The translations under genes and the position numbers were made by a program. From contig CP096136.1 of assembly GCA_023213215.1 (NCBI GenBank), positions 3,038,001-3,102,000 on the forward strand: a stretch of 64,000 nucleotides of DNA, in the 5' to 3' direction. Positions 48,231 to 63,932 of this stretch are shown in pieces (the first letter of the stretch is position 1; every line of letters starts with the position of its first letter). The stretch comes from Flavobacterium sp. JAD_PAG50586_2. GTDB taxonomy: Bacteria; Bacteroidota; Bacteroidia; Flavobacteriales; Flavobacteriaceae. Under the pieces are notes generated by a model that saw nothing but the letters and a program-made list of their open reading frames with translations, made no database searches and had not been told where the DNA came from.

Positions 48231-49129
48231 GAGCATTGGTAATATCAGGTGGTGGAAGCAAAGGTGCTTTCGGAGGTGGTGTTGCGCAATACCTGCTTCA
48301 GGAAAAATTCCATAAATACGATATCCTGATCGGAAGTTCCACCGGAAGTTTGCTTATTCCGCATTTGGCTTTAGGCGAAGTAAGTAAAATATACGACGCC
48401 TATACTAATGTTGATATGGGAAAAATATTCAATATTAATCCGTTTGTGGTAAAACATAAAGATGATGTGGATGTTGTCACGATCAATCACTTCAACGTTT
48501 TGCTCCAGTTTTTAAAAGGCAAAAGAACATTTGGCGAAAGCTCGAACCTCAGAAGCTATATCAAGGAAACTTTCACCGAAGTAGAATTCTACCGACTAAG
48601 AGCATCCTTTTGCGATGTGATTGTAACGGTAACCAATCTTTCCAAAAATGATGTAGAATACAAATCGATTAAAGATTTTGAATATGAAGCGTTCTGCGAC
48701 TGGATATGGATTTCGTGTAATTATATTCCGTTTATGAGTTTGGCCAGCCATGACAACTGCGAATATGGCGATGGCGGTTTTTCGAGCCTGGTTCCGATTC
48801 GGGAAGCCATTCAGCGTGGCGCGAAAGAAATTGACGTTGTTATCCTCGAAACCGAAATGCAGATGACACCGAAAAGCGTTGGTAAAAATCCCTTTTCACT
48901 AATGATTGATTTGTTTCAGACATTGCTAAACCAGGTTGAAAAGCATGATATTACCATCGGAAAGCTCGCTGCAAACAATAAAAACGTAAAGCTGAATTTA
49001 TACTACACACCAACCAATTTGACAAACAATGCGTTGATTTTTAACAAGGAAAAAATGAAAATCTGGTGGCAGCAGGGCTATGATTATGCTAAAAACAAGA
49101 GTGAGATTATGAGTGATAATTTGCAGTAG
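48227..49129 (+). CDS. Patatin-like phospholipase
   Basis: Lipid acyl hydrolase of 300 aa. The oxyanion loop is ISGGGSKGAFGGG (7-18), the nucleophile Ser38 is in the GSSTG elbow, and the catalytic-dyad Asp is about residue 182 in YGDGGF. No signal peptide, so cytoplasmic or injected. It starts inside the stop of the M1 peptidase gene. Substrate unknown (phospholipid or lysophospholipid likely). Confidence 0.92.
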   Translation: MRALVISGGGSKGAFGGGVAQYLLQEKFHKYDILIGSSTGSLLIPHLALGEVSKIYDAYTNVDMGKIFNINPFVVKHKDDVDVVTINHFNVLLQFLKGKRTFGESSNLRSYIKETFTEVEFYRLRASFCDVIVTVTNLSKNDVEYKSIKDFEYEAFCDWIWISCNYIPFMSLASHDNCEYGDGGFSSLVPIREAIQRGAKEIDVVILETEMQMTPKSVGKNPFSLMIDLFQTLLNQVEKHDITIGKLAANNKNVKLNLYYTPTNLTNNALIFNKEKMKIWWQQGYDYAKNKSEIMSDNLQ

Positions 49130-49217
49130 TTAAATATTCCTGCATTATCAAAATGTACACTTTTTGCCTACTTTCCATTTATAGCTTTCTTTTACTTTTA
49201 GCTTGTAAATAAAATGA

Positions 49218-49289
49218 ATGTTAGTAAAGGTTTTTGGAAGCGCGGTTTTCGGAGTCGAAGCGACAACGATTACAGTTGAAGTGAATATT
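49218..49289 (+). pseudogene. comM: comM 5' fragment (24 codons) left of the inserted element
   Basis: ATG 49218 begins the classic ComM/YifB N-terminus: MLVKVFGSAVFGVEATTITV then EVNI. It stops matching after AATATT (49284-49289); downstream DNA belongs to the inserted element and adds 16 unrelated codons (IYLLLLKINIK...) to a TAG at 49338-49340. The gene resumes at 62464 (NIDKGVGYHLVGLP). Its promoter must be in the 88 bp after the patatin gene. Confidence 0.93.
49284..49289. other. attL core of the comM-inserted element
   Basis: AATATT shared with 62464-62469. Left flank gtgAATATT is chromosomal, right flank is element DNA. The core is palindromic. Serine recombinases recombine at a 2-bp core within a short identity, so a 6-bp overlap is consistent with that mechanism. 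Confidence 0.75.
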
Positions 49290-49390
49290 ATTTACTTGTT
49301 GCTTCTGAAAATTAATATTAAATCCTTTAAAATCAAGTAGTCTAGGCTTTAACAAAGTTGTAAGAAAATAAATATTTTAATATTTATTCC

Positions 49391-49421
49391 TTGCAACCAT
49401 TGTTATTTATACATAATTTTG
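49391..49421 (+). promoter_or_regulatory. Promoter of the first element gene
   Basis: TTG at 49391-49393, 20-bp spacer, TAATTTTG at 49414-49421, 28 bp before the ATG at 49450. Confidence 0.6.
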
Positions 49422-49449
49422 TGAAACAACCCAACTAAAAATTAATTAT

Positions 49450-49713
49450 ATGACAGGTATAAATCTTAGCATTAAAAAGGATGGAATAACAAAGCCTTAT
49501 GGAATTTTTTATTCACAAGTTTTGAATTTTCACATTGCTCAAATTTTTGATGAAACAATGAAAATTATTTATAATGAAACTAGTAGAGAACAGGAAGATT
49601 GTTTTAAAAATTTATTAACTGCAGTTGATACACTAGGTATAATTATTACAATTTCCGAAAGTACACCAGATGAAGAGTTTCTAAATATGATAAAGAAACT
49701 AAAGGAAGATTAA
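49450..49713 (+). CDS. Hypothetical protein, 87 aa
   Basis: Soluble protein with no signal peptide or membrane segment and no motif I recognise. It has its own promoter (49391) and terminator (49724), which supports it as a real gene. It is the first gene inside the left end of the element. Confidence 0.65.
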   Translation: MTGINLSIKKDGITKPYGIFYSQVLNFHIAQIFDETMKIIYNETSREQEDCFKNLLTAVDTLGIIITISESTPDEEFLNMIKKLKED

Positions 49714-49723
49714 TCAAAAAATC

Positions 49724-49751
49724 GGATGCAAGCAATTGCATCCTTTTTTTT
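49724..49751 (+). terminator. Rho-independent terminator after the 87-aa gene
   Basis: Palindrome ggatgcaagcaattgcatcc followed by eight T. Confidence 0.88.
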
Positions 49752-49871
49752 ATCTTTATAAAATGATAAATCAGAAACCATATTCAGGATGTTCACCTGA
49801 CAATAATTTCTAATACCCAAGAAACTGGGAATGTATGAAATCTCAACCTTCTGGTTAAAAACATAAAGCTT

Positions 49872-50348
49872 ATGAAATTCATTTTACCAATAATTACATT
49901 ACTTCTTTTCACAATTACCTCAACAGGTCAAAATGTTAATTTGACCGAAATGATAAAATTAAATAATCTTGGAATTGAAGAATTTGATACCTCTGTTACA
50001 AGAAAAGGGTTCACTTATAAAGAAACCCAAAAAAATGATAGTGCTGAAAGTACTGTATATAAAAATGGCAAAGGAAGAAATACGTCTTATATAACTAAAG
50101 CTATTTATAAAACTGACAATTGGGAAATGGTATCATATCAGACTAATGATGAATCTACCTATTTAAAGTTTAAAACAGAATTGAAAAATCTTGGATTTAA
50201 TTATGTAGGTAAGAATGTTTCGGATGATGATACAATAATGTTCTATTATAAAAAAGATAATTTAAAACTGACCCTTTCTTCTTGGTTGAATAAAGCAGAA
50301 GAAAAGTATACAGTTTATGAAATATCAATTATTAAAGATAAAGACTAA
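49872..50348 (+). CDS. Hypothetical secreted protein, 158 aa
   Basis: Signal peptide at 1-19 (MKFILPIITLLLFTITSTG), then a small alpha/beta domain with charged repeats; no lipobox. No family recognised. It ends 8 bp before the DUF4393 gene, so the two are one transcript and the secreted protein may work with, or be controlled together with, the Abi-like protein. Confidence 0.7.
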   Translation: MKFILPIITLLLFTITSTGQNVNLTEMIKLNNLGIEEFDTSVTRKGFTYKETQKNDSAESTVYKNGKGRNTSYITKAIYKTDNWEMVSYQTNDESTYLKFKTELKNLGFNYVGKNVSDDDTIMFYYKKDNLKLTLSSWLNKAEEKYTVYEISIIKDKD

Positions 50349-50356
50349 AGAATAGG

Positions 50357-50971
50357 ATGGAAACAAAAATAGATATTTCTTCAACAATGGTTGAAAAAGG
50401 AATTGATTTAGTGAAAGGTTTTGTTGAGAAAATAGTTGGCTCAACACTTGAAGAAACTGGTTTATTATTAGGTGATAAAGTTAGAGTATACCGTTTGAAA
50501 AATCAAATTAAAATGCTGGGAATGACTCAGCAAATTTGCAATGATAACAATATATCCATTAAACAGATTTCTTTAAAAACATTGGTTCCATTATTAGAAT
50601 ATGCTTCTCTTGAAGACGAAGAATCTATACAAACCAAATGGGCAAAACTTCTATCAAATTATGTTGATTCGAGGAAGAATTTGGAATCATCAATCTTTCC
50701 TTTTATCCTTAGTCAACTTTCTACTAAAGAATTAGAAATTCTCGATACGATGTATAATAGTCCACTAATTGGAAGTCGATTCGATAGGCTACAAATAGAT
50801 GGTGTTATAAAATCAAATCTTATAAGATTAGGTCTTGCTGAAATTATTATACCACCACCAAAAAATGAAAATTCTTTAAGTCTAAGAATTCAAAGAGGTT
50901 TTGGTATCAATTATAAAATAAAGCTCACTCCTTTAGGTAATGAATTCTATAAGTGCTGTTCAACAGACTAA
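50357..50971 (+). CDS. DUF4393 (Abi-alpha-like) protein
   Basis: Protein of 204 aa. The core TLVPLLEYASLEDEESIQTKWAKLLSNYVDS (about 78-108) is the recognisable signature of DUF4393/Abi_alpha proteins, a family tied to abortive phage infection in Lactococcus. An amphipathic helix at 10-35 (KGIDLVKGFVEKIVGSTLEETG) may touch membranes, and a winged-helix-like region (KELEILDTMYNSPL... VIKSNLIRLGLAEI) follows. It is co-directional with the secreted protein and faces the small recombinase gene. The defence role is family knowledge, not shown here. Confidence 0.7.
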   Translation: METKIDISSTMVEKGIDLVKGFVEKIVGSTLEETGLLLGDKVRVYRLKNQIKMLGMTQQICNDNNISIKQISLKTLVPLLEYASLEDEESIQTKWAKLLSNYVDSRKNLESSIFPFILSQLSTKELEILDTMYNSPLIGSRFDRLQIDGVIKSNLIRLGLAEIIIPPPKNENSLSLRIQRGFGINYKIKLTPLGNEFYKCCSTD

Positions 50972-51001
50972 TGTTTTTCTGTAAGTCAAGACCCTTTGCG
51001 A

Positions 51002-51607
51002 TTACTTATCCAATATTGCTTTAACCTTCTTAACTGTATTAGGTGCGCAATTAGCTATCATCGCAATAGCTCTGTAACTAAGTGTAGGATGCTTTTTAAT
51101 GGATGACACTACTTTTTTATATTTTGTTAGAACGACCTCATCTGATTCGATGCTACCTAAAACCCTTCCTTTGTAAGTATCAGGATTCTTAGCCTTGGCA
51201 GATTTAATTCCCTCACGTTGACGTTCCAATAGATTCTCTTTTTCCATCTGAGCAACGTTGCTAAGAACATCACAAATCATTTTAAAAATTGGATTTGGCT
51301 TGCCGTTAACAATTGATGATAAGCCTAGATTGTCAACATTAAGGGTAACGTTAGCCTTGTTGAATAATTCAATCGTTTCTTGAACATTAAAGGCATTACG
51401 CCCCAAACGGTCAACCGATGAACATGATACAGTATCTATAGTTTTCATCGTTATTTCAAATAGCAAATCTTTTGCAGAAGGGCGTTCATTAAAAGGAACT
51501 GAACCAGAAATAACATCAATGAAAAGTTTTTCATCTGGATGCTGTCTGTCCAGCTGTCTGAGAGTTGATTGTGTGGCGGTGCTAATTCGGATGTATCTAC
51601 TTTTCAT
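51002..51607 (-). CDS. Small serine recombinase (resolvase/invertase)
   Basis: Recombinase of 201 aa. The catalytic Ser9 lies in YIRISTATQS; the family's conserved DRLGRNAFNVQETIELF and MEKENLLERQREGIKSAK follow, and a C-terminal helix-turn-helix (LSYRAIAMIANCAPNTVKKVKAILDK) binds DNA. This is a resolvase/invertase-size enzyme, distinct from the large recombinase at the element's right end. A perfect Bacteroidota promoter and a 15-bp inverted repeat lie directly upstream (51647-51756), a good candidate recombination or operator site for this protein. Confidence 0.92.
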   Translation of the reverse strand: MKSRYIRISTATQSTLRQLDRQHPDEKLFIDVISGSVPFNERPSAKDLLFEITMKTIDTVSCSSVDRLGRNAFNVQETIELFNKANVTLNVDNLGLSSIVNGKPNPIFKMICDVLSNVAQMEKENLLERQREGIKSAKAKNPDTYKGRVLGSIESDEVVLTKYKKVVSSIKKHPTLSYRAIAMIANCAPNTVKKVKAILDK

Positions 51608-51646
51608 TTGTTTAATTTAAAATACAAATGTAAATAAATTATTTTT

Positions 51647-51756
51647 ATTGTGCAAATTTAGGGTGGTATATTTTGCACACAAATATTTAATGCTTTTATT
51701 AGGATTCTGGGAATAGTTAATGAGCATGATAAGACTTTAATCTAAATTTGCACAAT
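51647..51756. promoter_or_regulatory. 15-bp perfect inverted repeat overlapping divergent promoter boxes
   Basis: attgtgcaaatttag at 51647-51661 and its exact complement ctaaatttgcacaat at 51742-51756, 80 bp apart. Each arm contains TAAATTTG pointing outward. On the minus strand TTG (51680-51682) lies exactly 19 bp from TAAATTTG (51653-51660), a full consensus promoter for the small recombinase. On the plus strand the equivalent -33 is TGA. The motif agggtgg recurs next to each arm and again near 51802. Confidence 0.85.
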
Positions 51757-51938
51757 AGGGTGGACTTGTAATTTTTATATTAAAGTTTAAAGCAATTTAA
51801 TTGGGGTGGATAGGGTAAAAAAAATACCCAGATTTCGATGCCCTTTTTTTAGAGCGTAAAAAATGTGCGCTTTCGCCAATTTTTTGGTCATATCTAGATG
51901 GAATTTATATTTTGTAAATGCTTAATTACCATTACTTT

Positions 51939-52042
51939 GAAACGATTTTGAAACGATTTTGAAACGTTTGTGTATCGTTTATGTCACGTTTGTGTATCGT
52001 TTGTGTATCGTTTGTGTATCGTTTCTGTCACGTTTGTGTCCC
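51939..52042. repeat. 11-bp tandem repeat array
   Basis: About nine units with an 11-bp period, starting gaaacgatttt twice, then gaaacgtttgt, then cgtttgtgtat and variants (cgtttatgtca, cgtttctgtca, cgtttgtgtcc). Near one helical turn per unit, so a protein bound at each unit would sit on the same DNA face. Iteron or phased-binding array (inference). Confidence 0.9.
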
Positions 52043-52184
52043 TTTTTTTATTTTTTTATTTCTCTTGTATCTCTTATTTGGCGGTTGTTTTCTGTTATTT
52101 CTACGTTTATTTTATTTATTCCTCTTGTTAAATAATTTTTGTTTCAAACAAAATAATATTTATTTTGCTTTATATTTGTAAAGC

Positions 52185-52432
52185 AAATACAAACCTACCA
52201 GAACCGCTAGAGGGGTCTATAAAAAAACCCTCCATGAAAATGAAGGGCTAAAAGGTTTAAGATTTACAAGCTTCGATAAGCTTTCTCAGTTCTTTTATAA
52301 ATTTAATTATCCTTAATCTGGATAACCAACTAATAAGAAAAAAGATTTCCATGTCTAGTGGGATTTTTTATTACAGTTAAGAGCAATCTGACTGTGCAAA
52401 GACCGAAGCTCCAACTTCGGTTTTTTTGTTTT
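52185..52432 (+). ncRNA. Possible short non-coding transcript
   Basis: A TATATTTG box lies just upstream (near 52170), although without a TTG at the right spacing. The region contains no ORF, has several hairpins (accctccatgaaaatgaagggc) and ends in a strong intrinsic terminator. A terminator with no gene before it suggests an RNA. Low confidence. Confidence 0.3.
52402..52427 (+). terminator. Rho-independent terminator with no upstream CDS
   Basis: Stem accgaag/cttcggt with a tccaa-type loop and seven T. Confidence 0.88.
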
Positions 52433-52778
52433 GATATTCCGTCAGTCGAATTATTAAAACATCTTAGGTCAAAGATAACATATTCTGTTTGTACAAAAAA
52501 GCCACATTATAAAATTTGATGTTTACAAGTAAGTATTTTTTGTTGATAACTTCTTAAAGGATATGTACAGTAACCTTTACCATACAACCATGAATGCCAT
52601 CTAGATACTTTTGATTAGTAACTATTTAATTTTTAATATTATAATAGCGATTTTGTTGATGGATATATATAAACGTGAAAATCGAAAAATGTAACGTTTC
52701 ACTTTTCGATTTGCGGTATTATATTGTTTATAACTTCTTAGTATTAAAAAGATTATTTATAAATCTTTGGCGAAAAGT

Positions 52779-53024
52779 CTATTCTTCTTTTTTGAATTCT
52801 AAACCTTCAAGAAGTTTACTAGGACTTACTTTAATAGCTCTTGCAATTTTAAATAATAAATTTAATGTCATCCCTTGATTGTGGTCGAATAAAAATCTAA
52901 TAGTTTTTTCATTACAACCGACCGCTTTAGCAAATTTTCGATTGTTCCCATCAAAATCTCTCTGGAATACAATATGTATCCTTTGAACTACTTCTTTTTT
53001 GATTTTGTCAAGTTGCTTCTGCAT
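52779..53024 (-). CDS. Small XRE-like helix-turn-helix regulator
   Basis: About 81 aa from ATG 53024 (MQKQLDKIKKEVV). The HTH reads NRKFAKAVGCNEKTIRFLFDHNQGMTLNLLFKIARAIKVSPSKLLEGL, the standard lambda-repressor/Cro fold. It is divergent from the gloVer-repeat gene and separated by about 95 bp that include the palindrome ttgcggg-ttttt-ccccgcaa, a likely operator for it. Typical of regulators controlling an integrative element's lysogeny-like state. Confidence 0.85.
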   Translation of the reverse strand: MQKQLDKIKKEVVQRIHIVFQRDFDGNNRKFAKAVGCNEKTIRFLFDHNQGMTLNLLFKIARAIKVSPSKLLEGLEFKKEE

Positions 53025-53066
53025 TAAACAAAATTGCAGAAGTAACAACTAATTAGAGAATTTTAC

Positions 53067-53099
53067 TTGCGGGTTTTTCCCCGCAATTTAATATCTTTG
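53067..53099. promoter_or_regulatory. Divergent promoter region with palindrome
   Basis: The hairpin-forming ttgcgggtttttccccgcaa is at 53067-53086 and TATCTTTG (full -7 match) at 53092-53099, 22 bp before the ATG at 53121. TTG at 53067-53069 is 22 bp from the -7, slightly long. Probable operator overlapping the promoter. Confidence 0.55.
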
Positions 53100-53120
53100 T
53101 TTTAATCAAAAAAATCAAAA

Positions 53121-54536
53121 ATGAGAAAAACTTTATTTTCAATTGTATTAATTTTATTAGGCGTTTCGGGTAAAGCACAATTTACAAATTTGCATAATTT
53201 TCCAACTGCTGGTGGTTATAGCTCTTTAACTTACGTGAATGGTGTTTTATATGGTACAGTTAATTCGGGCGGAACGAATAATGTGGGATACATCTATTCG
53301 ATGAATTCTAATGGTACAAGCTTTACAGTTTTATATAATTTTGTTGGCGATGCCAGTTTTCCTTGTGGTTCATTGTTATACGATAACGGAACACTTTACG
53401 GTATGACATCACAAGGCGATGGTGTTAATACGGGTGGGGGAACAATTTATAAATTAAACATTGATGGAAGTGGATATGCTATTTTACACTCTTTTACATA
53501 CCAAAATCCTAATGATGGGTTTAGTCCACAAAACTCATTGATTATTCTAGGTAATACATTATATGGTATGACACGAAAGGGTGGGGCAGTTTTTCCAGAA
53601 ATTGGTGGCGAGGGTACAATTTTTAAGATTAATACAGATGGTTCAAATTTTTCAATTTTACACAGTTTCGCTTATGGTGAAGAAAATCCATACGGCTCAC
53701 TTTTATTAAGTGGAAATTATTTATATGGGATGACCTCAACCTATAGCTCAAATACAAATGCTGGTAAAATTTTTAAGATAAATGTTGATGGAACTGGCTA
53801 TGTGATACTATATAATTTTAATGGCGCAGATGGGGCAAAGCCAAATGGCAGTCTTGTTATATCAGGTAATACTTTATATGGAATGACGGCGTTAGGCGGG
53901 AATACATTCACAGGAATAAGAAAAGGTAATGTATTTAAAATTAATACTGATGGTTCAGGTTTTCAAAGCATATATAATGATTTAAATGGCTCTACTAATT
54001 ATACATGGTCATACGGTTCATTGGTGCTTGTGGGAAATGTACTGTTTGGAAAATCAAATGTAAATTTATATTCATTAAATACTGATGGTTCAAATTACCA
54101 ATGGTATAATTGGGGAGGATATGGTTCAACGACTGGAAGTTTTGACCCAATGGAAAATGGAAATTTAACTTTTGGAGGTGGAGTATTATATGGAGTTAAT
54201 AATCGCTTTGGTGGTGATTCTGGCGGAGGGGTAATTTACAAATTTGCTCCCTCAACATTAGGTGTCGATTCAAATAATTCAATAGAAAATTTAATAGAAA
54301 TATACCCAAATCCAACAAATGATAATATAATAATCGATTTTCGAAGCGAAGTTAGTATAAACAATTATAATGTTAAAATTTATACTATGTTAGGTCAAGA
54401 GGTGTTGAATAGTATAATTAATCAAGAACAACAATCTATATCATTGAATAGCCTATGCGGAAAAGGAATTTATCTAGTTAAAATATTTAACGATTCAAAT
54501 TCTTTAATCGCATCCAAAAAAATTATGCTCAAATAG
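53121..54536 (+). CDS. Secreted gloVer-repeat protein with T9SS type A sorting domain
   Basis: Protein of 471 aa: signal MRKTLFSIVLILLGVSGKAQ, about eight repeats of roughly 45 aa with LYGMT and KINTDGSGF cores (the TIGR03803 gloVer type, probably a beta-propeller) over residues 25-370, then the T9SS type A tail starting at IYPNPTND and ending KIYTMLGQEV...KKIMLK. It would be exported by the host's type IX system, so this mobile element carries host-specific surface cargo. Function unknown. Confidence 0.9.
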   Translation: MRKTLFSIVLILLGVSGKAQFTNLHNFPTAGGYSSLTYVNGVLYGTVNSGGTNNVGYIYSMNSNGTSFTVLYNFVGDASFPCGSLLYDNGTLYGMTSQGDGVNTGGGTIYKLNIDGSGYAILHSFTYQNPNDGFSPQNSLIILGNTLYGMTRKGGAVFPEIGGEGTIFKINTDGSNFSILHSFAYGEENPYGSLLLSGNYLYGMTSTYSSNTNAGKIFKINVDGTGYVILYNFNGADGAKPNGSLVISGNTLYGMTALGGNTFTGIRKGNVFKINTDGSGFQSIYNDLNGSTNYTWSYGSLVLVGNVLFGKSNVNLYSLNTDGSNYQWYNWGGYGSTTGSFDPMENGNLTFGGGVLYGVNNRFGGDSGGGVIYKFAPSTLGVDSNNSIENLIEIYPNPTNDNIIIDFRSEVSINNYNVKIYTMLGQEVLNSIINQEQQSISLNSLCGKGIYLVKIFNDSNSLIASKKIMLK

Positions 54537-54841
54537 TCATTTTTAAATGTATTTAAAATATATAATAGGATGTTTTGTGTGTTTATTTTGTACCATAATG
54601 TAGTTGATTCTCACCTATTAGCTATATAGGTGCAACAAGCTAATCAATCTGCAATGTATCAGATTTGTATATGCCTCCCTACTTTTTGAGCCGGAAATCG
54701 AAGATTTCCGTTTTTATTCTGAGTTACCAGCCTCACTAGTTTGAAAAAAATAAAGTATAGCTACTAACACTCTATATGCCTTTCAAATTTTTTTGGTTTT
54801 TTCAGTTTAATTTTTCAGTTGATATTTATATTAAAAAAAAC
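54537..54841. other. 305-bp gene-free region with terminator
   Basis: Only a hairpin terminator (54692-54715) is recognisable. No ORF, promoter or repeat of note. Confidence 0.5.
54692..54715 (+). terminator. Rho-independent terminator after the gloVer gene
   Basis: Stem cggaaatc/gatttccg with a gaa-type loop and five T. Confidence 0.88.
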
Positions 54842-55003
54842 ATGAAAGTAAAATTAACCTTATCACAATTAAAAAAGATACTCAGAAATAACAAAATTAA
54901 GTATCCCATCAATTTCAAAAGAACAGATTTCACCGAAAAAGAATTCTTAGATTTTCAACAATTAATTATAAATAAAAAAGAAACTATCCATGAAAGAATT
55001 TAA
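54842..55003 (+). CDS. Small hypothetical protein, 53 aa
   Basis: Basic peptide MKVKLTLSQLKKILRNNKI... from ATG 54842; Lys-rich, predicted helical, possibly DNA-binding. A longer in-frame reading from 54776 is hydrophobic at its start and less likely. It overlaps the next small ORF by 14 bp, the pattern of paired small genes on plasmids and mobile elements. Confidence 0.45.
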   Translation: MKVKLTLSQLKKILRNNKIKYPINFKRTDFTEKEFLDFQQLIINKKETIHERI

Positions 55004-55130
55004 AGTTATAATGTGGATTGGAGCTAGTAAAACAGAAATTTTAGTTATAGCTCAAAATTCACCTAATGCTATGCAAATTGCTAAAAAACTATATCCATCT
55101 GCCAACGTAATTAGTGCAAAAAAATCTTAA
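54990..55130 (+). CDS. Small hypothetical protein, 46 aa
   Basis: ATG 54990 to TAA 55130; reads MKEFKVIMWIGASKTEILVI and NAMQIAKKLYPSANVI, a compact alpha/beta peptide resembling small modification-of-sequence proteins seen in Bacteroidota elements. Overlaps the previous ORF by 14 bp. No function assigned. Confidence 0.5.
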   Translation: MKEFKVIMWIGASKTEILVIAQNSPNAMQIAKKLYPSANVISAKKS

Positions 55131-55641
55131 AAATACAGCTTCTAATTTTCACAGAAAATGTGAATGGGCTGGGTAATTTTTACATTGATGTTTTGGCTTC
55201 GCCAATTCGCTTCCAGCAGTTGAGATGGTGTAATCCTTTTCAGTTGAGATGGTGTAACCTTTTCAGTAAATATAAATTTTCTAAAAATAAATTGTAGTGA
55301 ATAAATCTAAGTTGAATTGGAGTAACTTAACAATTGTAAACAGTCAATTAACTTTTATATAATATTTTTAATTTATTTATTAAGTATTGTTTTTATAATA
55401 TAGTTATTTAGGATAGTTATATAGGGGTTATATGACAGCAGAGTAAGCATTTAACTGACTGCTGGTTGAACAGACACCTGACTGTTAGTGATAAAATAAG
55501 CTTCTTTCAACTCACTCCTAGAATTAACTATTAGTTCAGCTAAGTATTTCTTTTTAAAATTTACTATTAAAAAAAATGGTAAAAAAAGTTGGTGGTGGAG
55601 CTTTTGTGTAGTTTACTTGCATAAATTAAATACAAGCAATA
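55131..55641. other. 511-bp gene-free region with direct repeats
   Basis: It contains a tandem direct repeat of cagttgagatggtgtaa at 55217-55240 and 55241-55263, a related imperfect copy (agttgaattggagtaac) near 55310, and several ctgactg motifs between 55450 and 55490. It precedes the winged-helix gene and looks like a replication origin or regulatory repeat region. No ORF supported. Confidence 0.55.
55217..55263 (+). repeat. Tandem direct repeat, about 23 bp, two copies
   Basis: Copies at 55217-55240 and 55241-55263 share cagttgagatggtgtaa and then (t)ccttttt-like ends; one base difference. Confidence 0.85.
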
Positions 55642-56250
55642 ATGCCAAATACATTAACAATTCAACAAACTTATCATGATGCATTAAACTATGCTTCAGC
55701 ATCCATCAACAAGAAAAATAAATTTTATATAACACCTTCTGAGCATAAGGTTTTAATTAAGCTTATTCATTATTCTAAAACTTATAATGACATAACCTTC
55801 CAAAATATTCACATAGCAAAGCACTTATTCCTGGCAGAATCAACAGTAAAAGATTCATTAGAAAGCTTGAATCGAAAGAACTTTATTAGAACGGAATTGG
55901 ATATTTTTAATAATAGACTAGGTTACAAATCCCGAAGAACAATATATATCAATTGGTTAACTATTAGTGATGTTAAAAATCAGATGGAACAATTTCAATT
56001 AAATGATAAAGAAAATGTTCCTGAAATACAACCACATGCATATATTGAGCAAGTTATAAAAGAAGAGCCAAAAACAAATTTATCAGATTTTGATGCAGAA
56101 GAGGAATACGCTGATTTGTTGGATTTTGTTAATGAATATCAGAAAACATATACGGGAGCAAAAGGTAGGCATTGGGTAATTCAAAATCTTTTGAGAAATA
56201 AACAAATAAAGACCAAAAAACAGATTATTGAATTATTTGAAAAAGATTAA
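55642..56250 (+). CDS. Winged-helix protein, possible replication initiator or regulator
   Basis: Protein of 202 aa with a helix-turn-helix of the HTH_36/replication-protein type: FYITPSEHKVLIKLIHYSK, then IHIAKHLFLAESTVKDSLESLNRKNFIRTELD (about residues 30-95). The C-terminal half is acidic and then helical. Its position beside the direct-repeat region at 55217 suggests it binds there, as initiators bind iterons. There is no primase or helicase domain, so I cannot call it a Rep protein. Confidence 0.7.
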   Translation: MPNTLTIQQTYHDALNYASASINKKNKFYITPSEHKVLIKLIHYSKTYNDITFQNIHIAKHLFLAESTVKDSLESLNRKNFIRTELDIFNNRLGYKSRRTIYINWLTISDVKNQMEQFQLNDKENVPEIQPHAYIEQVIKEEPKTNLSDFDAEEEYADLLDFVNEYQKTYTGAKGRHWVIQNLLRNKQIKTKKQIIELFEKD

Positions 56251-56300
56251 TTCTTTTTATAAATTTATAACTTTAAAAATCGCCCAATTTTCCACAATGG

Positions 56301-56327
56301 AAACCACCAGAGATGGTGGTTTTTTTA
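56301..56327 (+). terminator. Rho-independent terminator after the winged-helix gene
   Basis: Stem aaaccacc/ggtggttt with an agagat loop and T7. Confidence 0.9.
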
Positions 56328-56348
56328 TTTGGTAGAAATTACTTCCTA

Positions 56349-57368
56349 TTAAAATTTAATGAATCCAGTTGTATATGTTTTTTCAGAAAGGATTCTAATA
56401 TAATACCAAGTTCTAAATTTCCTTAACACTTTAAAATTACTTCCTGATTCCAAAATTAAAATAGTTTGTGAACGAATATCTTTCTCTGTTTTGACAGTTA
56501 TTTTATTTCTATTTGAATAAATTACGTTAACTTTTATCTGTGATTCGTCTTCAATATCATTTTCAACGAAGGGCAAATTCAAATTGTTTATTCTCATTCC
56601 CATCAATAGTATAATCGGTGGATAAATAAACAAAGCCAAAGTCAATAAAATAAATTGAACATTTTTTGAATGATAAAATTGATTTAGAAATATTATAAAT
56701 TCATCTAACATTTCAAAAATTTTGTCCGAATCAGTATTGTCTGCATTACTAACTTTGTCAAAGAATTTGTTAGTTGCATCAATCATTTCATTAACTTCTT
56801 TTTGAACGACTTCTCTACCATTTTTATCCAAATCTTGAACAACAGCAACAGTTAAACTATCGGTAAAATTTTTATTTTCGGTTGTTATATACCTACCATA
56901 GTTAGTATTTAAAAATGATAAATTTCCAACAAGTGCTTTAGCGATATTTTCCGTGTCTGGAAGAAACATTTGTGGAAATTTATCACGCCATTCAATTTGA
57001 GAAATTGCAAATTTAGTAGCATAATCCATTCCAGTAAATACTTTTTGAGCTGTTAGACTAGATAAAAATTGTTGAGTTGACAACCCTAATAATGGCGGTT
57101 GTGGAGTGTATAACTGGCTAATTTTATTTGGGATTTTATAAAATGCTGAATTAACTGAACCAGCTAATGCAGCTCCAATTGATTTGTCAAATACTGGATT
57201 TTCATATTGGGTAAGCAATTTACCTAACTGATTGGAAATTGCAAATGACGGTGAAATTGAATCAATTTTACTTTGAACATCACTCAACATTTTAAACATA
57301 GGGTTATTTAAAAAATCCATATTCATTTTTAAAAATTTATTGGTTGATTTTGCGCCATAAAGACACAT
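56349..57368 (-). CDS. Uncharacterised membrane protein with SH3-like C-terminus
   Basis: Protein of 339 aa. A long soluble N-terminal region (1-230) is rich in Asn, Ser and Phe; residues about 238-258 (VQFILLTLALFIYPPIILLMG) form one membrane segment; the last 60 residues read like a bacterial SH3 domain (KITVKTEKDIRSQTILILESGSNFKVLRKFRTWYYIRI). The conserved family is unknown to me. Start could also be a Met at residue 15 or 17. It is the last of three closely spaced minus-strand genes that probably form an operon (9 bp from the gene before it). Confidence 0.65.
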   Translation of the reverse strand: MCLYGAKSTNKFLKMNMDFLNNPMFKMLSDVQSKIDSISPSFAISNQLGKLLTQYENPVFDKSIGAALAGSVNSAFYKIPNKISQLYTPQPPLLGLSTQQFLSSLTAQKVFTGMDYATKFAISQIEWRDKFPQMFLPDTENIAKALVGNLSFLNTNYGRYITTENKNFTDSLTVAVVQDLDKNGREVVQKEVNEMIDATNKFFDKVSNADNTDSDKIFEMLDEFIIFLNQFYHSKNVQFILLTLALFIYPPIILLMGMRINNLNLPFVENDIEDESQIKVNVIYSNRNKITVKTEKDIRSQTILILESGSNFKVLRKFRTWYYIRILSEKTYTTGFIKF

Positions 57369-57377
57369 ATTTAATTT

Positions 57378-58016
57378 TTATTTTCGTTTTGATGGGTCAA
57401 TTTCTGGATAAATTTTATCAAGTGTTTCATATAACAATTCCACTTGATATTTATGAACTCCAAGTACTATTGCGTCAGTATCTGCATTGAGTATTTCAGC
57501 TGTCTTATTGTGACAAAGTTCCATCATATTGTTGATTATAAATTTATCGGATAAGGAATTTTGAAACTCACCTATTTGTTTATAAACTTCATCACTAAAA
57601 ATTCCTTTCATCAATATGCAATTTGTAACAAATTCATTTTCATAAGTTACTGATTCCTCAAACTTTGCAAATTCTATAGGAAGTTTTTCTTTTAGTTTGT
57701 AAGTAATTTTATCATTAAACTTTGGTGGTAATAGGGTAATTTTTAAACTGTCTTGAATTTTTACATCTTCTTTCATGTACAACATCCTAATTTTGGCTCT
57801 ATGCTCACATAATGAAATCATCGTTAGAGACGATTTCGTAAATTTTTCTAGTAATTCAATTTTATAGTTATCAAGACTTTGGTTTTGCTCGATTTGATTT
57901 TGTTTTTTCCAAACAAAGTAATTAATAAATGAAACAAGTATAGCAGTAATTACTGCGGTTATAACAGCAATCAAAATGGATTTATATGTTGATTCAGTTT
58001 TAGTTGGCATAAACAT
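57378..58016 (-). CDS. Uncharacterised membrane-anchored protein
   Basis: Protein of 212 aa with one N-terminal transmembrane helix (SILIAVITAVITAILVSFINYF, about 13-34) and a mostly helical cytoplasmic or periplasmic domain. No recognisable motif. It lies 9 bp before the SH3-like protein gene and 37 bp after the gene for the five-helix membrane protein, so all three are likely co-expressed. Confidence 0.65.
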   Translation of the reverse strand: MFMPTKTESTYKSILIAVITAVITAILVSFINYFVWKKQNQIEQNQSLDNYKIELLEKFTKSSLTMISLCEHRAKIRMLYMKEDVKIQDSLKITLLPPKFNDKITYKLKEKLPIEFAKFEESVTYENEFVTNCILMKGIFSDEVYKQIGEFQNSLSDKFIINNMMELCHNKTAEILNADTDAIVLGVHKYQVELLYETLDKIYPEIDPSKRK

Positions 58017-58053
58017 TATCTATTAAAGTTTGATAAATGTAATTATAATAAAT

Positions 58054-58815
58054 CTATTCAGAATCAGTTAGTTTATCGAAAGCAATAATTTTAATCAGTC
58101 CCGTATTGCCTATACTATAAAACAAATATTTGTCATTGAAATACAATAGTTCAACCTTTTCAACCTTATATTCTTTTTTTAAGTTTTTTTCGATTGGTTT
58201 GACATTAATAAGATTACTAGGTAAGAAAAATTTTTTGTGAAATTCTATTGCGATAAGTGAAAAATTGAATAACAGAAACAACAATCCAAAGGTGAAAATA
58301 TATCCTGCCAACTTATTTTTATCTTCAAATGTAACTTTCCAACCGACGACGAACCCGAAGTAAATTATTAAGAAAATAAAAACAAACTTAATTAAGCTAA
58401 GTACGAATGGATTAACTTGCGGAAAGCTTTCAGTTGAAAGAACAAAAGCATATTCAAAAAGTAAAAAAGACGCTATTGCCACCAGAAAATATAACGACAT
58501 ACTAAGGATTGGATACTTTTTTATGAATGCTAATCCTGATTCACTCATTCCTTTGCGTTCCGAAAAGTCAGTAGTCACTTTTTGATAATAGACCGTTATT
58601 ATAAAACTAGAAGCGATAATTATCAAAATCAACAATCCATCCGCAACAAGTTGAGTTCCTGAAAAAAATCTTACGAAAGAAAACGACATACAAGATAATG
58701 CAACAATCTGCCAAATGCCACCAAGCAAAACTGGAATAAGGATTATAACGCCTACATAGTCTTTTAAAAAAGCTAATGGGTCGGTAATAAAGTCGGTTCT
58801 TATTTTCGTAATCAT
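58054..58815 (-). CDS. Uncharacterised polytopic membrane protein
   Basis: About 253 aa from ATG 58815 (MITKIRTDFITDPLAFLKDYVGV); an upstream in-frame Met at 58875 is less likely. About five transmembrane helices occupy residues 20-190, followed by a soluble C-terminal domain (KVEKVELLYFNDKYLFYSIGNTGLIKIIAFDKLTDSE). No family recognised. First gene of the three-gene cluster in the element. Confidence 0.65.
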   Translation of the reverse strand: MITKIRTDFITDPLAFLKDYVGVIILIPVLLGGIWQIVALSCMSFSFVRFFSGTQLVADGLLILIIIASSFIITVYYQKVTTDFSERKGMSESGLAFIKKYPILSMSLYFLVAIASFLLFEYAFVLSTESFPQVNPFVLSLIKFVFIFLIIYFGFVVGWKVTFEDKNKLAGYIFTFGLLFLLFNFSLIAIEFHKKFFLPSNLINVKPIEKNLKKEYKVEKVELLYFNDKYLFYSIGNTGLIKIIAFDKLTDSE

Positions 58816-58896
58816 ATTCAAAAGTTTAAATTGTTGGTTAGGTAAATATACTAACCAACAATTAACGATTGACAAATTTTTTAAATATCTTCTGGA

Positions 58897-59133
58897 TTAT
58901 CTCGGTTGATATTCGCTAGGATAAGGAATATTATTATCCCTAACATAGGTAAATAGGTTATAGAAATTGTTGTGAGCCATTTGGAAATCTATATAGGCAA
59001 TTTGATAATCAGGAATAAGGTTTAGTTCAGAGAATCCATCTGCTTCCACTAATTCTTTATCAAGCTTAAGTAATGCTTGAGATTTTGAAGCATAATCATC
59101 ATATAGTTCTTGTAATTTTTCTTTGTAAGTCAT
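58897..59133 (-). CDS. Small hypothetical protein, 78 aa
   Basis: Soluble, helical and acidic: MTYKEKLQELYDDYASKSQALL then YQIAYIDFQMAHNNFYNLF. No homology I can name. It is upstream of the membrane-protein cluster by about 80 bp and could be its small regulatory partner (weak inference). Confidence 0.5.
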   Translation of the reverse strand: MTYKEKLQELYDDYASKSQALLKLDKELVEADGFSELNLIPDYQIAYIDFQMAHNNFYNLFTYVRDNNIPYPSEYQPR

Positions 59134-59203
59134 AATGTGTTGTTTTAGAAGTACAAAGTTATCTGGAAGTTATAACCTAATCAAGGAATTTAAAATTTAT
59201 TTA

Positions 59204-59440
59204 CTATAAATCTCGAATAACGTGCTTAACAATCCCAAGGCATCTAACCTCATCATTTTCTTCAATCTTAATTGGTTTATGCTCTGCATTATCAGAAGTG
59301 AAGCTGTTGGATTTTTTGTTATAACGTTTAACGCTGTAAGCTGAATTGTTGATTGATATTACAGCAATACAACCATCCGTAAAATCTTTCCAAGATTTGA
59401 CGCTGGATTGAATAATCTTTCGCAAGAAACATAGCAATTG
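59204..59440 (-). pseudogene. S24 peptidase (UmuD/LexA-like) C-terminal scrap
   Basis: The frame ending at 59204 reads DFTDGCIAVISINNSAYSVKRYNKK then SDNAEHKPIKI and RCLGIVKHVIRDL, which matches the C-terminal half of S24 peptidases: the Lys in YSVKRY is the catalytic Lys and SDNAEHKPI is the family's SENPxYxPI loop. The upstream half with the catalytic Ser is missing; the frame instead opens into the umuC start. A remnant, not a working protease. Confidence 0.5.
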
Positions 59441-59463
59441 TTGACATCGACAAGGGCAATCAT
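59362..59463 (-). pseudogene. umuC 5' scrap (33 codons)
   Basis: ATG 59463 begins MIALVDVNNCYVSCERLFNP, the unmistakable N-terminus of a Y-family polymerase UmuC/DinP. After NP the reading goes to a stop (59362) and the DNA joins the S24 frame. The normal gene order is umuD-umuC, so a umuC start lying upstream of a umuD-type end indicates a deletion or rearrangement between two such operons. Confidence 0.7.
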
Positions 59464-59548
59464 AATTTGGGTTTTGAAGTACCACAAAATTACTAAAAAA
59501 CTCAAGGTCAAATTTGAATGTTGATAAATAAAACTACGTAGTATATTT

Positions 59549-60399
59549 TTAAATCACGTCATTAAAATTAACTTCTTCTGCATCGTTTTTCTTATCCATT
59601 CTATAAAAATTATATAAAGCATCCATCTGTGCTTGAAATTGGATAGGATGATTTTTCTGTGATTTCAACAATTCTAAAAAATAATTAAATTTAGAATAAT
59701 AAATAAATTTAGACAATTCCTCAAGTTCAGTTCGATATTCATCTTTCAAATCACAATTATTTATTGAATCAAATACATTGTAAAATGACGATATTATATT
59801 CGTGATGTGAAAGTAAATTGATAGATATGAATCGTTATATGTTATATCAACTTTTGTTCCTTTGTCTTCTTGCTCTTTTTTATTTCTAAAAATTCCACCA
59901 GAAATAAATTTATTCCTTGAATTCCAATGAAGTTATATTTCTTGTCATTTTTATCGTCTAAGTATTCAATCTTTGAAATTAATTTGTTGCCGTGAAACGA
60001 AATGTTGAAATTGTTGATTTCGTTAATTATCATAAGTAACCTAGACTTGTAGTTATTGAAAACAAAGTCAATATGTTCAGATGCCATATTTTTATTAAAC
60101 TGTTCTTGGATAATATCATTTGCTTTTTTTTGCATATAGAAAGCCAAGAAAGTAACTAAGGTTGCGGCTATTCCAACAATTGGGTTTAATATTCCTCCAA
60201 GTGCATCACCAACAACTCCGAAATTATCTGGTATACTTTGAAAGAATAATAATTGAATTAAAATTAAGGCAAAGCCAAAAACACCCAATCCTAGTAGTAC
60301 GAAGCTTAGATATGAAGTGTTATAAATTTTTTGGTCAGTCGTCATATTTGAAATGTTTACATACAAATATATAGAAAATGGGTTCATAGTTGAACCCAT
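59549..60399 (-). CDS. putAbiC-like membrane protein (frameshifted)
   Basis: Reassembled protein of about 280 aa. Two N-terminal membrane helices (SYLSFVLLGLGVFGFALILIQLLFF and ILNPIVGIAATLVTFLAFYMQ), with VGDALGGILNPIVG between them, then a charged helical domain: the layout of putative phage abortive-infection proteins (putAbiC). At the A6 run 59876-59881 the written frame ends KKSKKTKEQKLI, while one more A on the coding strand gives KKEQEDKGTKVDITYNDSYLS and joins the C-terminal part ending at 59549. The true start may be a Met at 60345 (MTTDQKI). Anti-phage role is family inference. Confidence 0.65.
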
Positions 60400-60421
60400 T
60401 ATGTACTATTGAAATTAGTTA

Positions 60422-62337
60422 TTATATATCGCATTCACTTATGTAGATATAGTTTTCTTTTTTAATTGTAGTTAATTGATTGCCTAGAAATCCATCACTT
60501 TCAATCCCATATTTTAATTGTTCTTGGAATTGATTATATAATTCTAGGGTATCTACAGTAAGGATGTTTGTATTTTCCTTATCAATCATCTGGTAGTTTT
60601 CCAGAATGTCCTTTGAATGGTCAAATTCAAATTGGTCATCTTTGTAGGCTGGTGCATTTTCCATATTAAGAATTGGTAGGTATTGATATTTTTTTCACTT
60701 CTTCCACCGTAAACCCTAACTCCATTCGCATTGATAAACAACTTTAGCGTGTTGTTTAGCCTTACACCGTTCACTTTGACAAAGGTGTTTGCCAAAACAT
60801 AACCATTGCCCACATCATTAAGGATAATCTTATCAATGAACTGTTTGAAGATGCTTCTTAATTCTGGTCTGTTATGCTTTGCATTCTCAAACATTTCAGA
60901 TGTTGCAGTTTTTTGATTGTAGTTTGCAATTGTGGTTTTTTTCGATAGAATATCTTTCGTAAGCCTTCTGATTTTTTCCTTGATTCCATCAATTTCAGAT
61001 TGAATTTCACCTTCCAACTTGGCAAATCTTTCGAAGTTTGGATTGGTACTAGCAGTAGTTACTTTCAAAAGGTTATCAATTTGCTTTTCCTTGCCATCCA
61101 ATGCTGATTTTTCATTTTTCAAAAGCTGTTCTTGGATACTTAACTCAGCTTGGATTTGCTTAAGGATGTCATTTGGATTATCCAAGTACTTTAGAAGTCC
61201 ATCTGCATTAGAAATCTGGTCATAAATAACACTTTCGATTAGGCTAATGTTAATGCTTCTGTTTCCACAACCACGCCCAGCAACCAGATATGAAGTGCAT
61301 TTGTAAACCTTATCACCATTGAGTTGATACTTGCCTGAGTATTTGCGACCGCAAACACCACAACGCATAAGGTCTTTCAACAAGTATTCATTTACAGTAA
61401 GCATATTTCTACTTGATTTGTTTTGTCTAAGATGGTTGCATTCATCCCAGATTTCAGTAGATACAATTGGTTCAACTGGAATTTCAATGTATTCAGCTGG
61501 TTCAAGGATTACATTTTTATCATCTATGATTTCAATTATAGCATCCTTAACTTTATGCCTTCTTATTCCTTTATAAGTTGGATTTTTCACCATCTGTCTT
61601 ATCACCACATCAGACCATTTAATTTCACTCCCAGTTATTGTTATATTTTCATCTAAGAAATTAAAGCTAACATCAGCTTTAAGTTTGTTGAATTTTGTTG
61701 GAACTTCCATTTCATTAAGTGAATTGGCTATTACTCTAAAACCAATTCCAGATTTATAATCTTGAAATATTTGTTCGACTATGCTAGCTTCATCTGGATT
61801 GATGATTACCTTACCAGTTTCATCGGTCATATATCCATAAGCTTGAGTGTTAGTATTTGATTTACCGTCAATAGCCCTTTGACGCTTTCCAGATTTTGCA
61901 CGTCCTTTGAATAACTCCGCTTCAATATGTGCAAACTCCATAAGCACTTGTAGAATGATTGAAACAATTGGGTCAACTTTTCCATCATCTTTGATAGTTT
62001 TTAATTGAAGTGTTCCAATATATACTGGTACTTTCAAGTCAGATAGTTCATCAATGATTTCCCTTGTGTGTCTTGGATTCCTTCCTATTCTTGAAATCTC
62101 AGTTACATAAATGCAATCATAAGCTTTTGGATTCGCTCTTAAGATTTCCATTATACGATTTAGTTCTGGTCTTTCATTGCACTTTTTATATCCAGAAAGT
62201 TTTTCAGCATAAATTTCAATCTGGTCTTCTTTGTAATCGTCTTTCAAAATCGCTCTGGTGCAATCAGAAATTTGACGCATGTATTCTTGATTGTCTTGAG
62301 TTGAAACCCTTGCATAAATTGCTACTTTTTTTTCCAT
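60422..62337 (-). CDS. Large serine recombinase (integrase of the element; frameshifted near C-terminus)
   Basis: Resolvase N-terminal domain with catalytic Ser12 in YARVSTQDNQEY and EISRIGRNPRHTREI, recombinase domain (YKSGIGFRVIANSLNEMEVP, NPTYKGIRRHKV), zinc ribbon (LMRCGVCGRKYSG then CTSYLVAGRGCGN) and a coiled coil (about 395-470). The written frame stops at 60586, but a T7 run (60689-60695, plus strand) is one base short: with it restored GRSEKKYQYLPILNMENAPAYKDD continues to 60422, giving about 638 aa. It sits at the right end next to comM, as integrases do, and is the likely enzyme for insertion at AATATT. Confidence 0.93.
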
Positions 62338-62463
62338 AATTTTTAAAATTTATTTGTTGTTTACTGGCAATCCTACTACAGAAAAATTCAGCCAACAAGT
62401 TTTTAATTGTATTATTTGCTTGTATAAATGTAAAGCCTCAAGTTTACTATACCAACTGAGGTC

Positions 62464-62469
62464 AATATT
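62464..62469. other. attR core of the comM-inserted element
   Basis: AATATT, identical to 49284-49289; left flank (actgaggtc) is element DNA, right flank (gataaagg) is comM. Confidence 0.75.
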
Positions 62470-63932
62470 GATAAAGGTGTCGGCTATCATTTAGTCGGAC
62501 TGCCGGATAATGCCATTAAGGAAAGCAGTTACCGGATTGCCGCTGCACTAAAAAACAATGGTTACAATCTGCCGGGAAAGAAAATAACAATCAACATGGC
62601 ACCAGCTGATTTGCGAAAGGAAGGTTCCGCCTATGATTTGACTTTGGCTGTGGGAATCCTTGTTGCTTCAGGTCAGATAAAGGCTGATGAAGTGGACAGG
62701 TATATTATTATGGGCGAAATGTCGCTTGACGGAGGTTTACAACCCATAAAAGGAGCATTGTCTATCGCCATCAAAGCGAAGGAGGAAGGTTTCAAAGGTT
62801 TTTTCTTCCGATTCAGAATGTAAAAGAGGCAGCGATTGTCACCGGATTGGATGTGTATGGAGTTGAGAATGTAATTCAGGTCATCGATTTTTTTGAAGGC
62901 AACGGTACTTTAGACCCAACAGTTATTGATACCAAAGAAGAGTTTTATAAAACCTTAGATTTTCCTGAATTTGATTTTGCTGATGTAAAAGGCCAGGAAA
63001 GCATCAAGCGCTGTATGGAAATAGCCGCTGCAGGTGGTCATAACATTATACTTATTGGGCCTCCGGGTTCAGGAAAAACAATGCTCGCAAAACGATTGCC
63101 TAGCATTTTACCACCAATGACTTTAAATGAAGCCTTGGAAACTACAAAAATACACAGCGTCGCGGGAAAAATAAAAGATATTGGTTTATTGAATCAACGT
63201 CCATTTAGGAGTCCGCATCATACAGCTTCATCGGTTTCTTTAGTTGGTGGTGGAAGTTATCCTCAACCCGGAGAAATCTCGTTAGCACACAACGGCGTTT
63301 TGTTTTTGGATGAATTGCCGGAATTCAAAAGAGAAGTCCTCGAAGTGATGCGGCAACCGTTGGAAGACAGGGAAGTGACTATTTCGAGAGCCAAGTTCAC
63401 CATTACTTATCCGTCGTCGTTTATGTTGGTAGCGAGTATGAATCCAAGTCCCGGAGGTTATTTTAACGATCCTGATGCGCCTGTAAGTTCATCTCCTGCA
63501 GAAATGCAGCGTTACCTCAGTAAGATTTCCGGGCCATTATTAGATAGAATTGATATTCATATTGAGGTAACTCCGGTTCCTTTCGATAAACTTACCGAAA
63601 CTAGAAAAGGGGAGAGCAGTGTTGAAATCAGAAAACGTGTCACCGTTGCGCGGGAAATACAGTCAGTTAGGTTTGTCGATTTTGATAACATCCATTACAA
63701 TGCGCAAATGAGTTCAAAACAGATTCGCGAATATTGTGCTTTGGATGAAAGTTCGTTACAGCTTTTAAAAACCGCTATGGAACGCCTGAATCTTTCCGCA
63801 AGGGCTTTTGACAGAATCCTAAAAGTCTCAAGAACCATCGCCGATTTAGAAGCATCGGAAACCGTAAATTCAAACCATATTGCTGAAGCGATTCAGTATA
63901 GAAGTTTGGATAGGGATGGATGGTTGGGTTAA
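62464..63932 (+). pseudogene. comM: comM main body (right of the element; one frameshift)
   Basis: Continues ComM/YifB from codon 23: NIDKGVGYHLVGLPDNAIKES, then the Lon-like N-terminal domain, AAA+ ATPase with Walker A GPPGSGKTM, the Mg-chelatase signature (FRSPHHTASSVSLVGG), Walker B VLFLDELPEF, and a C-terminal domain ending LDRDGWLG. The T6 run at 62799-62804 is one base short: the frame reads FFFRFRM-stop, while one more T gives FFLPIQNVKEAAIVTGLDVYG. Apart from this probable sequence error the only real lesion is the insertion. ComM promotes branch migration during natural transformation. Confidence 0.93.

Follow-up and report, generated by a model that had tools for sequence, protein, structure and literature searches.

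Several described systems bear on the locus reported here. In the Sin system, the two Sin dimers of each res are bound at site I and site II, and the spacer takes an architectural protein, as described in the available portions of two reports (PMC2428073, PMC2764113); pairing through site II is thought to come first, and cleavage occurs at the center of site I (PMC2428073, available portion). The same portions give a length of 86 bp for the Sin site resH and a head-to-tail arrangement of its site II motifs (PMC2428073, PMC2764113). In Tn3, gamma-delta, and SGI1, the promoter of the resolvase gene overlaps the res site, and the central dinucleotide is AT in Tn3 and gamma-delta and AC in SGI1, according to the accessible part of PMC12217951, which further describes an island-borne resolvase and res in SGI1 and the elimination of island multimers by the reactivated system.

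The window, i.e. the whole stretch of 64,000 nucleotides analyzed here, comprises bases 3038001-3102000 of a one-contig genome of 3.81 Mb, whose promoter type and gene content suggest a relative of Flavobacterium. A perfect inverted repeat lies in it next to the gene of a small serine recombinase, and we consider it likely that this repeat forms the outer framework of a res site with two subsites, used by the recombinase encoded at 51002-51607 to separate copies of the island that carries it. The features on which this reading is built are as follows (positions are those of the window).

49218 to 49289, plus strand: comM, 5' fragment encoding residues 1-24, on the left side of the island
51002 to 51607, minus strand: gene of a small serine recombinase of the resolvase type, 201 amino acids
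51625 to 51632, minus strand: TACATTTG, the -7 element of the probable promoter of the recombinase; the TTG of the arm (51653-51655) is at a distance of 20 bp
51646 to 51661, no strand assigned: inverted repeat, left arm, which is the half-site of site II nearer the gene; the TTG within it at 51653-51655 (minus strand) is the likely -33 element
51649 to 51679, minus strand: site II, a 31-bp dyad TGTGCAAAATATACCACCCTAAATTTGCACA, putative accessory subsite
51680 to 51720, no strand assigned: spacer between the sites, hardly conserved, candidate place for a DNA-bending protein such as HU or IHF
51721 to 51754, minus strand: site I, a 34-bp imperfect dyad TGTGCAAATTTAGATTAAAGTCTTATCATGCTCA centered at 51737/51738, candidate crossover site
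51742 to 51757, no strand assigned: inverted repeat, right arm, which is the outer half-site in site I
60586 to 62337, minus strand: gene of a large serine integrase, 583 amino acids, with Resolvase, Recombinase, and zinc-ribbon domains, adjoining the comM remainder
62446 to 63932, plus strand: remainder of comM, right of the island, with a frame change near 62757-62787

The recombinase and its inverted repeat

Pfam recognizes a Resolvase domain in the small recombinase (2.7e-19) and names no C-terminal domain. Residues Y5, R7, S9, R42, R67, and R70, which we take to be the catalytic Tyr/Arg/Ser and Arg residues of this domain, are invariant in 20 sequences. The best sequence match in the PDB is Sin (1.7e-10 over residues 4-196), with gamma-delta resolvase next. 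The AlphaFold2 model (mean pLDDT 84.2, pTM 0.59) contains a long helix at residues 106-140 and C-terminal helices within residues 156-200, corresponding to helix E and the DNA-binding helices, and its top Foldseek matches in the PDB are Sin (E 5.8e-08) and a gamma-delta resolvase:Hin chimaera (7.4e-08); the TM-scores of the full-length resolvase matches are low (about 0.4-0.6, and with a large rmsd when both domains are included), which probably reflects a different placement of the domains. In NCBIfam, the Mpi-type invertase match is weak (25.7 bits against a cut-off of 272), and the best match, XisF, likewise scores far short of its cut-off (47.5 against 375).

The sequence-only reading of this DNA had described two arms of 15 bp at 51647-51661 and 51742-51756, exact complements with 80 bp between them, and this holds, the perfect match extending one base further to 16 bp (51646-51661 and 51742-51757). 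The 64-kb window contains no other perfect inverted repeat of at least 15 bp with a spacer of up to 200 nt; 60 dinucleotide shuffles of the window gave three inverted repeats of at least 15 bp in total (mean 0.05), and a second set of 60 gave none of at least 16 bp. Also as described, TAAATTTG is present in both arms, and on the minus-strand side a TTG precedes it by exactly 19 bp, the plus-strand side being without TTG by eye. The arm 16-mer has no further occurrence in the genome at zero or one mismatch; at up to three mismatches the arm gives 104 matches genome-wide, against 73 for the reversed control, with none other below two mismatches. At the same tolerance of up to three mismatches, a 22-nt pattern made from the outer half of site I finds itself and one match with three mismatches in the genome (reversed control, none), and the site II pattern finds itself alone (reversed control, one). 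As far as these searches show, the genome holds one full copy of the putative res site.

Two paired dyads in related loci

At E 0.001 the recombinase has matches in 34 of 150 related genomes, and at 1e-30 in 46 of 398 genomes of the genus; both counts include the window's own genome. The scan covered up to 900 bp of DNA upstream of the gene at 65 of 66 loci (L039 was excluded, having no tblastn match at 1e-10) and used a motif taken from 13 loci that had been picked by eye with the aid of arm matching; only the inner cores entered the motif, and scoring was leave-one-out. The sequence-only reading had proposed looking for the same arrangement beside homologous recombinases, and two blocks above the 99% shuffle level were indeed found in 37 of the 65 upstream regions; relative to the gene, 36 share one orientation and one (L063) is reversed. 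This level was 18.1 in 390 full-length dinucleotide shuffles, and 25 of the 52 loci outside the motif set passed it; 35 of the 65 regions scored above the highest of the 390 shuffles, and an earlier null of 195 mononucleotide shuffles of 400-nt pieces likewise left 37 of 65. Some of the 28 regions below the level belong to distant relatives (26-33% identity), some have the module turned round or lying behind an extra gene, and L018, L026, and L088-L090 are also among them.

The counts that follow refer to 49 loci, made up of the 36 passing loci in the same orientation, five weaker ones added by eye (L030, L031, L060, L069, and L091), and eight turned-round loci with anchors set by eye (L016, L020, L061, L063, L064, L066, L071, and L080). 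Sixteen loci were dropped (L018, L026, L028, L032-L038, L077, L078, L088-L090, and L092); the recombinase of L078 is identical to that of L071. Positions thus rest on inspection by eye in 13 of the 49 loci (the eight turned round and the five weak) and in L029, which was set to a spacing of 80 (score 14.1) instead of 104, and the anchoring of L016 and L020 is ambiguous. Many loci are close kin, the 49 forming 28 clusters.

In 15 representatives that we chose from loci with a spacing of 79-81, conservation falls into two blocks of about 32 and 31 columns, one spanning positions -12 to +19 with respect to the distal arm's TAG (site I) and the other positions -17 to +13 with respect to the proximal arm's CTA (site II). 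Conservation in the middle is near the null except for three isolated columns, and no third conserved subsite was seen in the spacer of these 15 representatives. On this anatomy, the arms of the inverted repeat are the outer half-sites of two separate dyads, site I and site II. The distance from TAG to CTA is 79-81 in 34 of the 49 loci, 68-69 in 10, 101-102 in three, and 65 in two; the last two, L016 and L020, are likely mis-anchored, as a TACACTT anchor that they share would by eye give about 79. By arithmetic, the three main classes correspond to center-to-center distances of about 73.5, 62, and 94.5 bp, or about 7, 6, and 9 turns of 10.5 bp, and in the window itself the centers of site I and site II are 73.5 bp apart, about seven helical turns. 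The central dinucleotide of site I is AT in 41 of the 49 loci, AC in five, AA in two (the window and L079), and TT in one; because the window has AA and not the usual AT, the activity of its own site is less certain.

The sequence of the arms varies among loci, yet the two arms of a locus agree with each other. Over the outer ten arm bases, which had been excluded from the motif, the arms match within a locus at 189 of 280 positions (28 clusters) against 130.5 expected, and none of 200,000 permutations, in which arms were dealt out among loci, reached as high a value. As the arms had been taken into account in choosing some anchors, the test was repeated on loci placed by the scan alone: the 35 such loci gave 117 of 170 (17 clusters) against 84.7 expected (0 of 100,000 permutations as high), and the 24 of them outside the motif set gave 92 of 130 (13 clusters) against 67.2 (1 of 100,000).

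The AGGGTGG word that the sequence-only reading had placed beside each arm is present at 51660-51666 and 51757-51763, but the two copies have the same direction and so do not belong to the inverted repeat. A CCACC-like word, loosely defined and on the minus strand, occupies the place of the first copy in 33 of the 41 loci of normal orientation; a counterpart of the second, lying outside site I, occurs in one of the 41, which is the window.

By its sequence anatomy, then, the locus presents a candidate crossover site and a putative accessory site upstream of the recombinase gene, and the proposal of a res site with recombinase subsites, which the first reading had offered beside a promoter switch, is well supported by the comparison among loci. 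The recombinase would bind as a dimer at site I (51721-51754) and at site II (51649-51679). Resolvase/res systems act on directly repeated sites in supercoiled DNA, and the substrate here would be the island in two directly repeated copies, in the form of a dimeric circle, a tandem array, or a cointegrate; the two res sites would pair through site II, and strand cutting and exchange at the center of site I would then separate the island copies. A single copy of the res site is expected of the resolved state, so the substrate would presumably be a dimer or tandem array arising from transfer or integration. Binding at site II would cover the -33 region of the recombinase promoter, and the enzyme should therefore repress its own gene.

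Such a system would work like the Sin and Tn3-type resolution systems, and the window site is probably the res site of a Sin-like but distinct variant. The likeness to Sin lies in the enzyme, for which Sin is the best match in the PDB by both sequence and Foldseek, and in the presence of two recombinase sites only, since the relatives show two blocks and a spacer near the null. By eye, the letters TTAGGGTGTATATT of a Sin site II construct, given in the available portion of PMC2428073, also resemble TTTAGGGTGGTATATT here. On the other hand, the span in the window is 106 bp (51649-51754) against the 86 bp given for resH in the portions available, center distances of about 62, 73.5, and 94.5 bp occur within the window's family, and site II forms a dyad here and, judged by eye, in the relatives, whereas that of Sin is described as head-to-tail. 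With Tn3 and gamma-delta, as far as the accessible part of their description goes, the locus shares the enzyme fold, a site I dyad with central AT (in the family), and a promoter overlapping res, but it shows two conserved blocks in place of three dimer-binding subsites, and no Tn3-family transposase was noticed by eye among the ORFs of the island. SGI1, in the part of its description available, resembles the present system in carrying a resolvase and a res on an integrated island, but it is a gammaproteobacterial island with a three-box, Tn3-like res, whereas here there are two boxes and a large serine integrase in comM. Because one feature of Sin and one of Tn3 are absent, we regard the locus as a variant of the resolvase/res kind and a member of neither group. 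The striking repeat would be explained as a recombination site whose anatomy can be recognized in the sequence next to many recombinases of the genus.

A contig scan with the single recombinase protein picked out 29 stretches, with no relative among them, and a search of viral contigs with the recombinase alignment gave three loci. Plasmids (the best 5000 records) and phages (44 records) yielded only relatives below 60% identity; in two Persicobacter plasmid homologues (34% identity) the res arrangement was absent by eye. A search of an open-access library for papers on Flavobacterium or Bacteroidetes resolvases, res sites, and comM islands gave, among the matches listed, no title naming this system.

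Promoter, orientation, and other readings

The -33 element of F. psychrophilum sigma-A promoters is TTG. Their -7 box is TAnnTTTG, as given in the available part of PMC9723704. In 26 of the 49 loci a TAnnTTTG lies beyond the proximal arm at no more than 75 nt, against 4.6% of shuffles, and the full pattern of TAnnTTTG with TTG 18-21 bp upstream of it occurs beyond the proximal arm in 22 of the 49, against 0.33% of shuffles, and is absent in the other 27. In 14 of these 22 loci, including the window, the TTG lies within the arm and the -7 box at +27 to +29 nt from the arm start, whereas in the other eight, which belong to the group with 68-69 spacing, the -7 box is at +14 and the TTG inside site II. 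It follows that in the window, where the -7 element is outside the 80-bp segment and the TTG of the -33 element is in an arm that is repeated identically, inversion of the segment would change neither; this inversion-neutral layout does not hold for the 68-69-spacing group, where the TTG is inside site II. The alternative promoter formed by TTG, 19 bp, and TAAATTTG is found in one of the 13 loci that have TAnnTTTG in the arm, namely the window itself.

Orientation of the module is constant within groups. Among the 107 pairs of inner segments more than 70% identical, 106 are concordant in orientation, and the discordant pair (L069/L080, 70% identical) spans the two orientation groups. In the turned-round group, the dyad with central AT adjoins the gene and the other dyad is distal, with a spacing of 79-80 in six of eight loci. 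On the recombinase tree, a single change accounts for the nine turned-round rows among the 50 labelled rows: a 10-row clade (support 97/94) contains them, its tenth member, L077, being turned round by eye, and a tree grouping the nine without L077 was rejected (p-AU 0.0185), L077 sitting among them. The module thus appears to have changed orientation a single time and kept the new one, and the single change, together with the 106 of 107 concordant pairs, argues against an active switch. The turned-round clade is the sole observation that leaves room for rare inversion between the arms.

A broader account of these data, which we put forward tentatively and regard as possible but on balance improbable, is that the loci form a family of two-site res elements in which the outer arms match and hold the -33 element, enabling the module to drive the recombinase gene either way round, that one clade has been turned round, possibly by rare inversion between its own arms, and that the sites are spaced in nearly whole helical turns (about 6, 7, and 9). 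If this were true, the spacings of about 6, 7, and 9 turns would constitute a natural series of synapse geometries for serine resolvases; if the spacing series and the turned-round module hold, they would provide natural variants for studying how accessory sites and DNA bending control strand exchange and would suggest how islands that break comM might stay single copy.

An operator function alone, in which the repeat would be bound by the recombinase or another repressor for control of the promoter, recombination having been lost in this genome, appears unlikely. It would fit with the overlap between the arm and the -33 element of the likely promoter, with AA in place of AT at the center of site I in the window, and with a genome that offers no good second copy as a recombination partner, but the catalytic residues are intact, the conserved 34-bp dyad with its central AT and the fixed distance between the sites exceed what an operator needs, and the site lies about 455-830 bp upstream of the recombinase in L067, L068, L079, and L083. 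Quite unlikely, in our view, is an attachment site, at which the small recombinase would insert or exchange DNA modules at site I, the block beyond it being acquired DNA. The similarity between L024 and L086, which are 90% identical over 1.4 kb, does end at the outer edge of site I, and that between L059 and L062 (79%) ends about 10 bp outside the arm and resumes further out. However, the window island has its own large integrase and ends at comM, and similarity crosses site I in nine pairs of 83-100% identity (L023/L082, L017/L021, L017/L076, L075/L076, L011/L012, L013/L094, L070/L073, L071/L078, and L027/L093); with the L024/L086 break set against these nine, we treat exchange at site I as a lead only.

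Invertible promoters of the Mpi/Hin type have two inverted crossover sites flanking a promoter that is found in both orientations. The locus resembles the Mpi-type invertases of Bacteroides in having a small serine recombinase, with the weak NCBIfam match mentioned above, but the cores of its two dyads differ and are not both crossover-like, the genome contains no good second site, sites of the window type are paired at a fixed spacing, and orientation is fixed within groups. The switch favored by the sequence-only reading, in which the recombinase would flip 51662-51741 and so move the -33 element and redirect transcription from the recombinase to the rightward region, is therefore very improbable and was rejected: although a perfect inverted repeat adjoins a serine recombinase, TTG stands at 19 bp on one side only, and one clade has the module opposite relative to the gene, the two arms belong to different dyads, the conserved promoter of the window (not that of the 68-69-spacing group) would be unaffected, the proposed promoter is confined to one of 13 loci, and orientation agrees in 106 of 107 pairs with one change on the tree.

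The island and its surroundings

The recombinase gene lies between the comM fragments at 49218-49289 and from 62446 onward, which delimit an island of about 13.1 kb. Fragments of comM with other break points occur near relatives in G038, G261, and G056, and G150 has a comM ORF of 487 amino acids. Around the relatives in L044, L050, and L095 there are comM fragments, which directly adjoin a large serine recombinase in the latter two; comM may thus be a repeated target of serine-integrase islands in the genus.

Other genes of the surroundings are recorded here as separate observations. An Abi_alpha-domain gene (50357-50971 in the window), a candidate defense gene, stands beside the recombinase, and such candidates near the closest relatives are AbiLi/AbiLii (RloB-like) at 3294-5421 of L098 and an SspE-like gene at 364-4264 of L096. 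Also on the island, at 53121-54536 in the window, is the gene of a repeat protein that ends in a type IX secretion sorting tail. Next to the recombinase there is often a small gene (about 100 amino acids), whose place relative to res varies by eye: it lies between res and the recombinase in L016, L061, L066, L071, and L077 and just outside site I in L015, L017, L021, L075, and L076.

A search of 49000-63000 for Rfam families gave no match. About 175 bp outside site I, at 51931-52040, the window has an array of 11-bp tandem repeats of the AAACGATACAC type, which is iteron-like, and repeats of period 11 in two or three copies are also present upstream in L080, L067, and L013. Micro-ORFs of 31-34 amino acids with K-x-[IL]-R-K-L-I were found near the repeats and res in three of the loci searched, the window (52257-52352, minus strand), L064, and L080.
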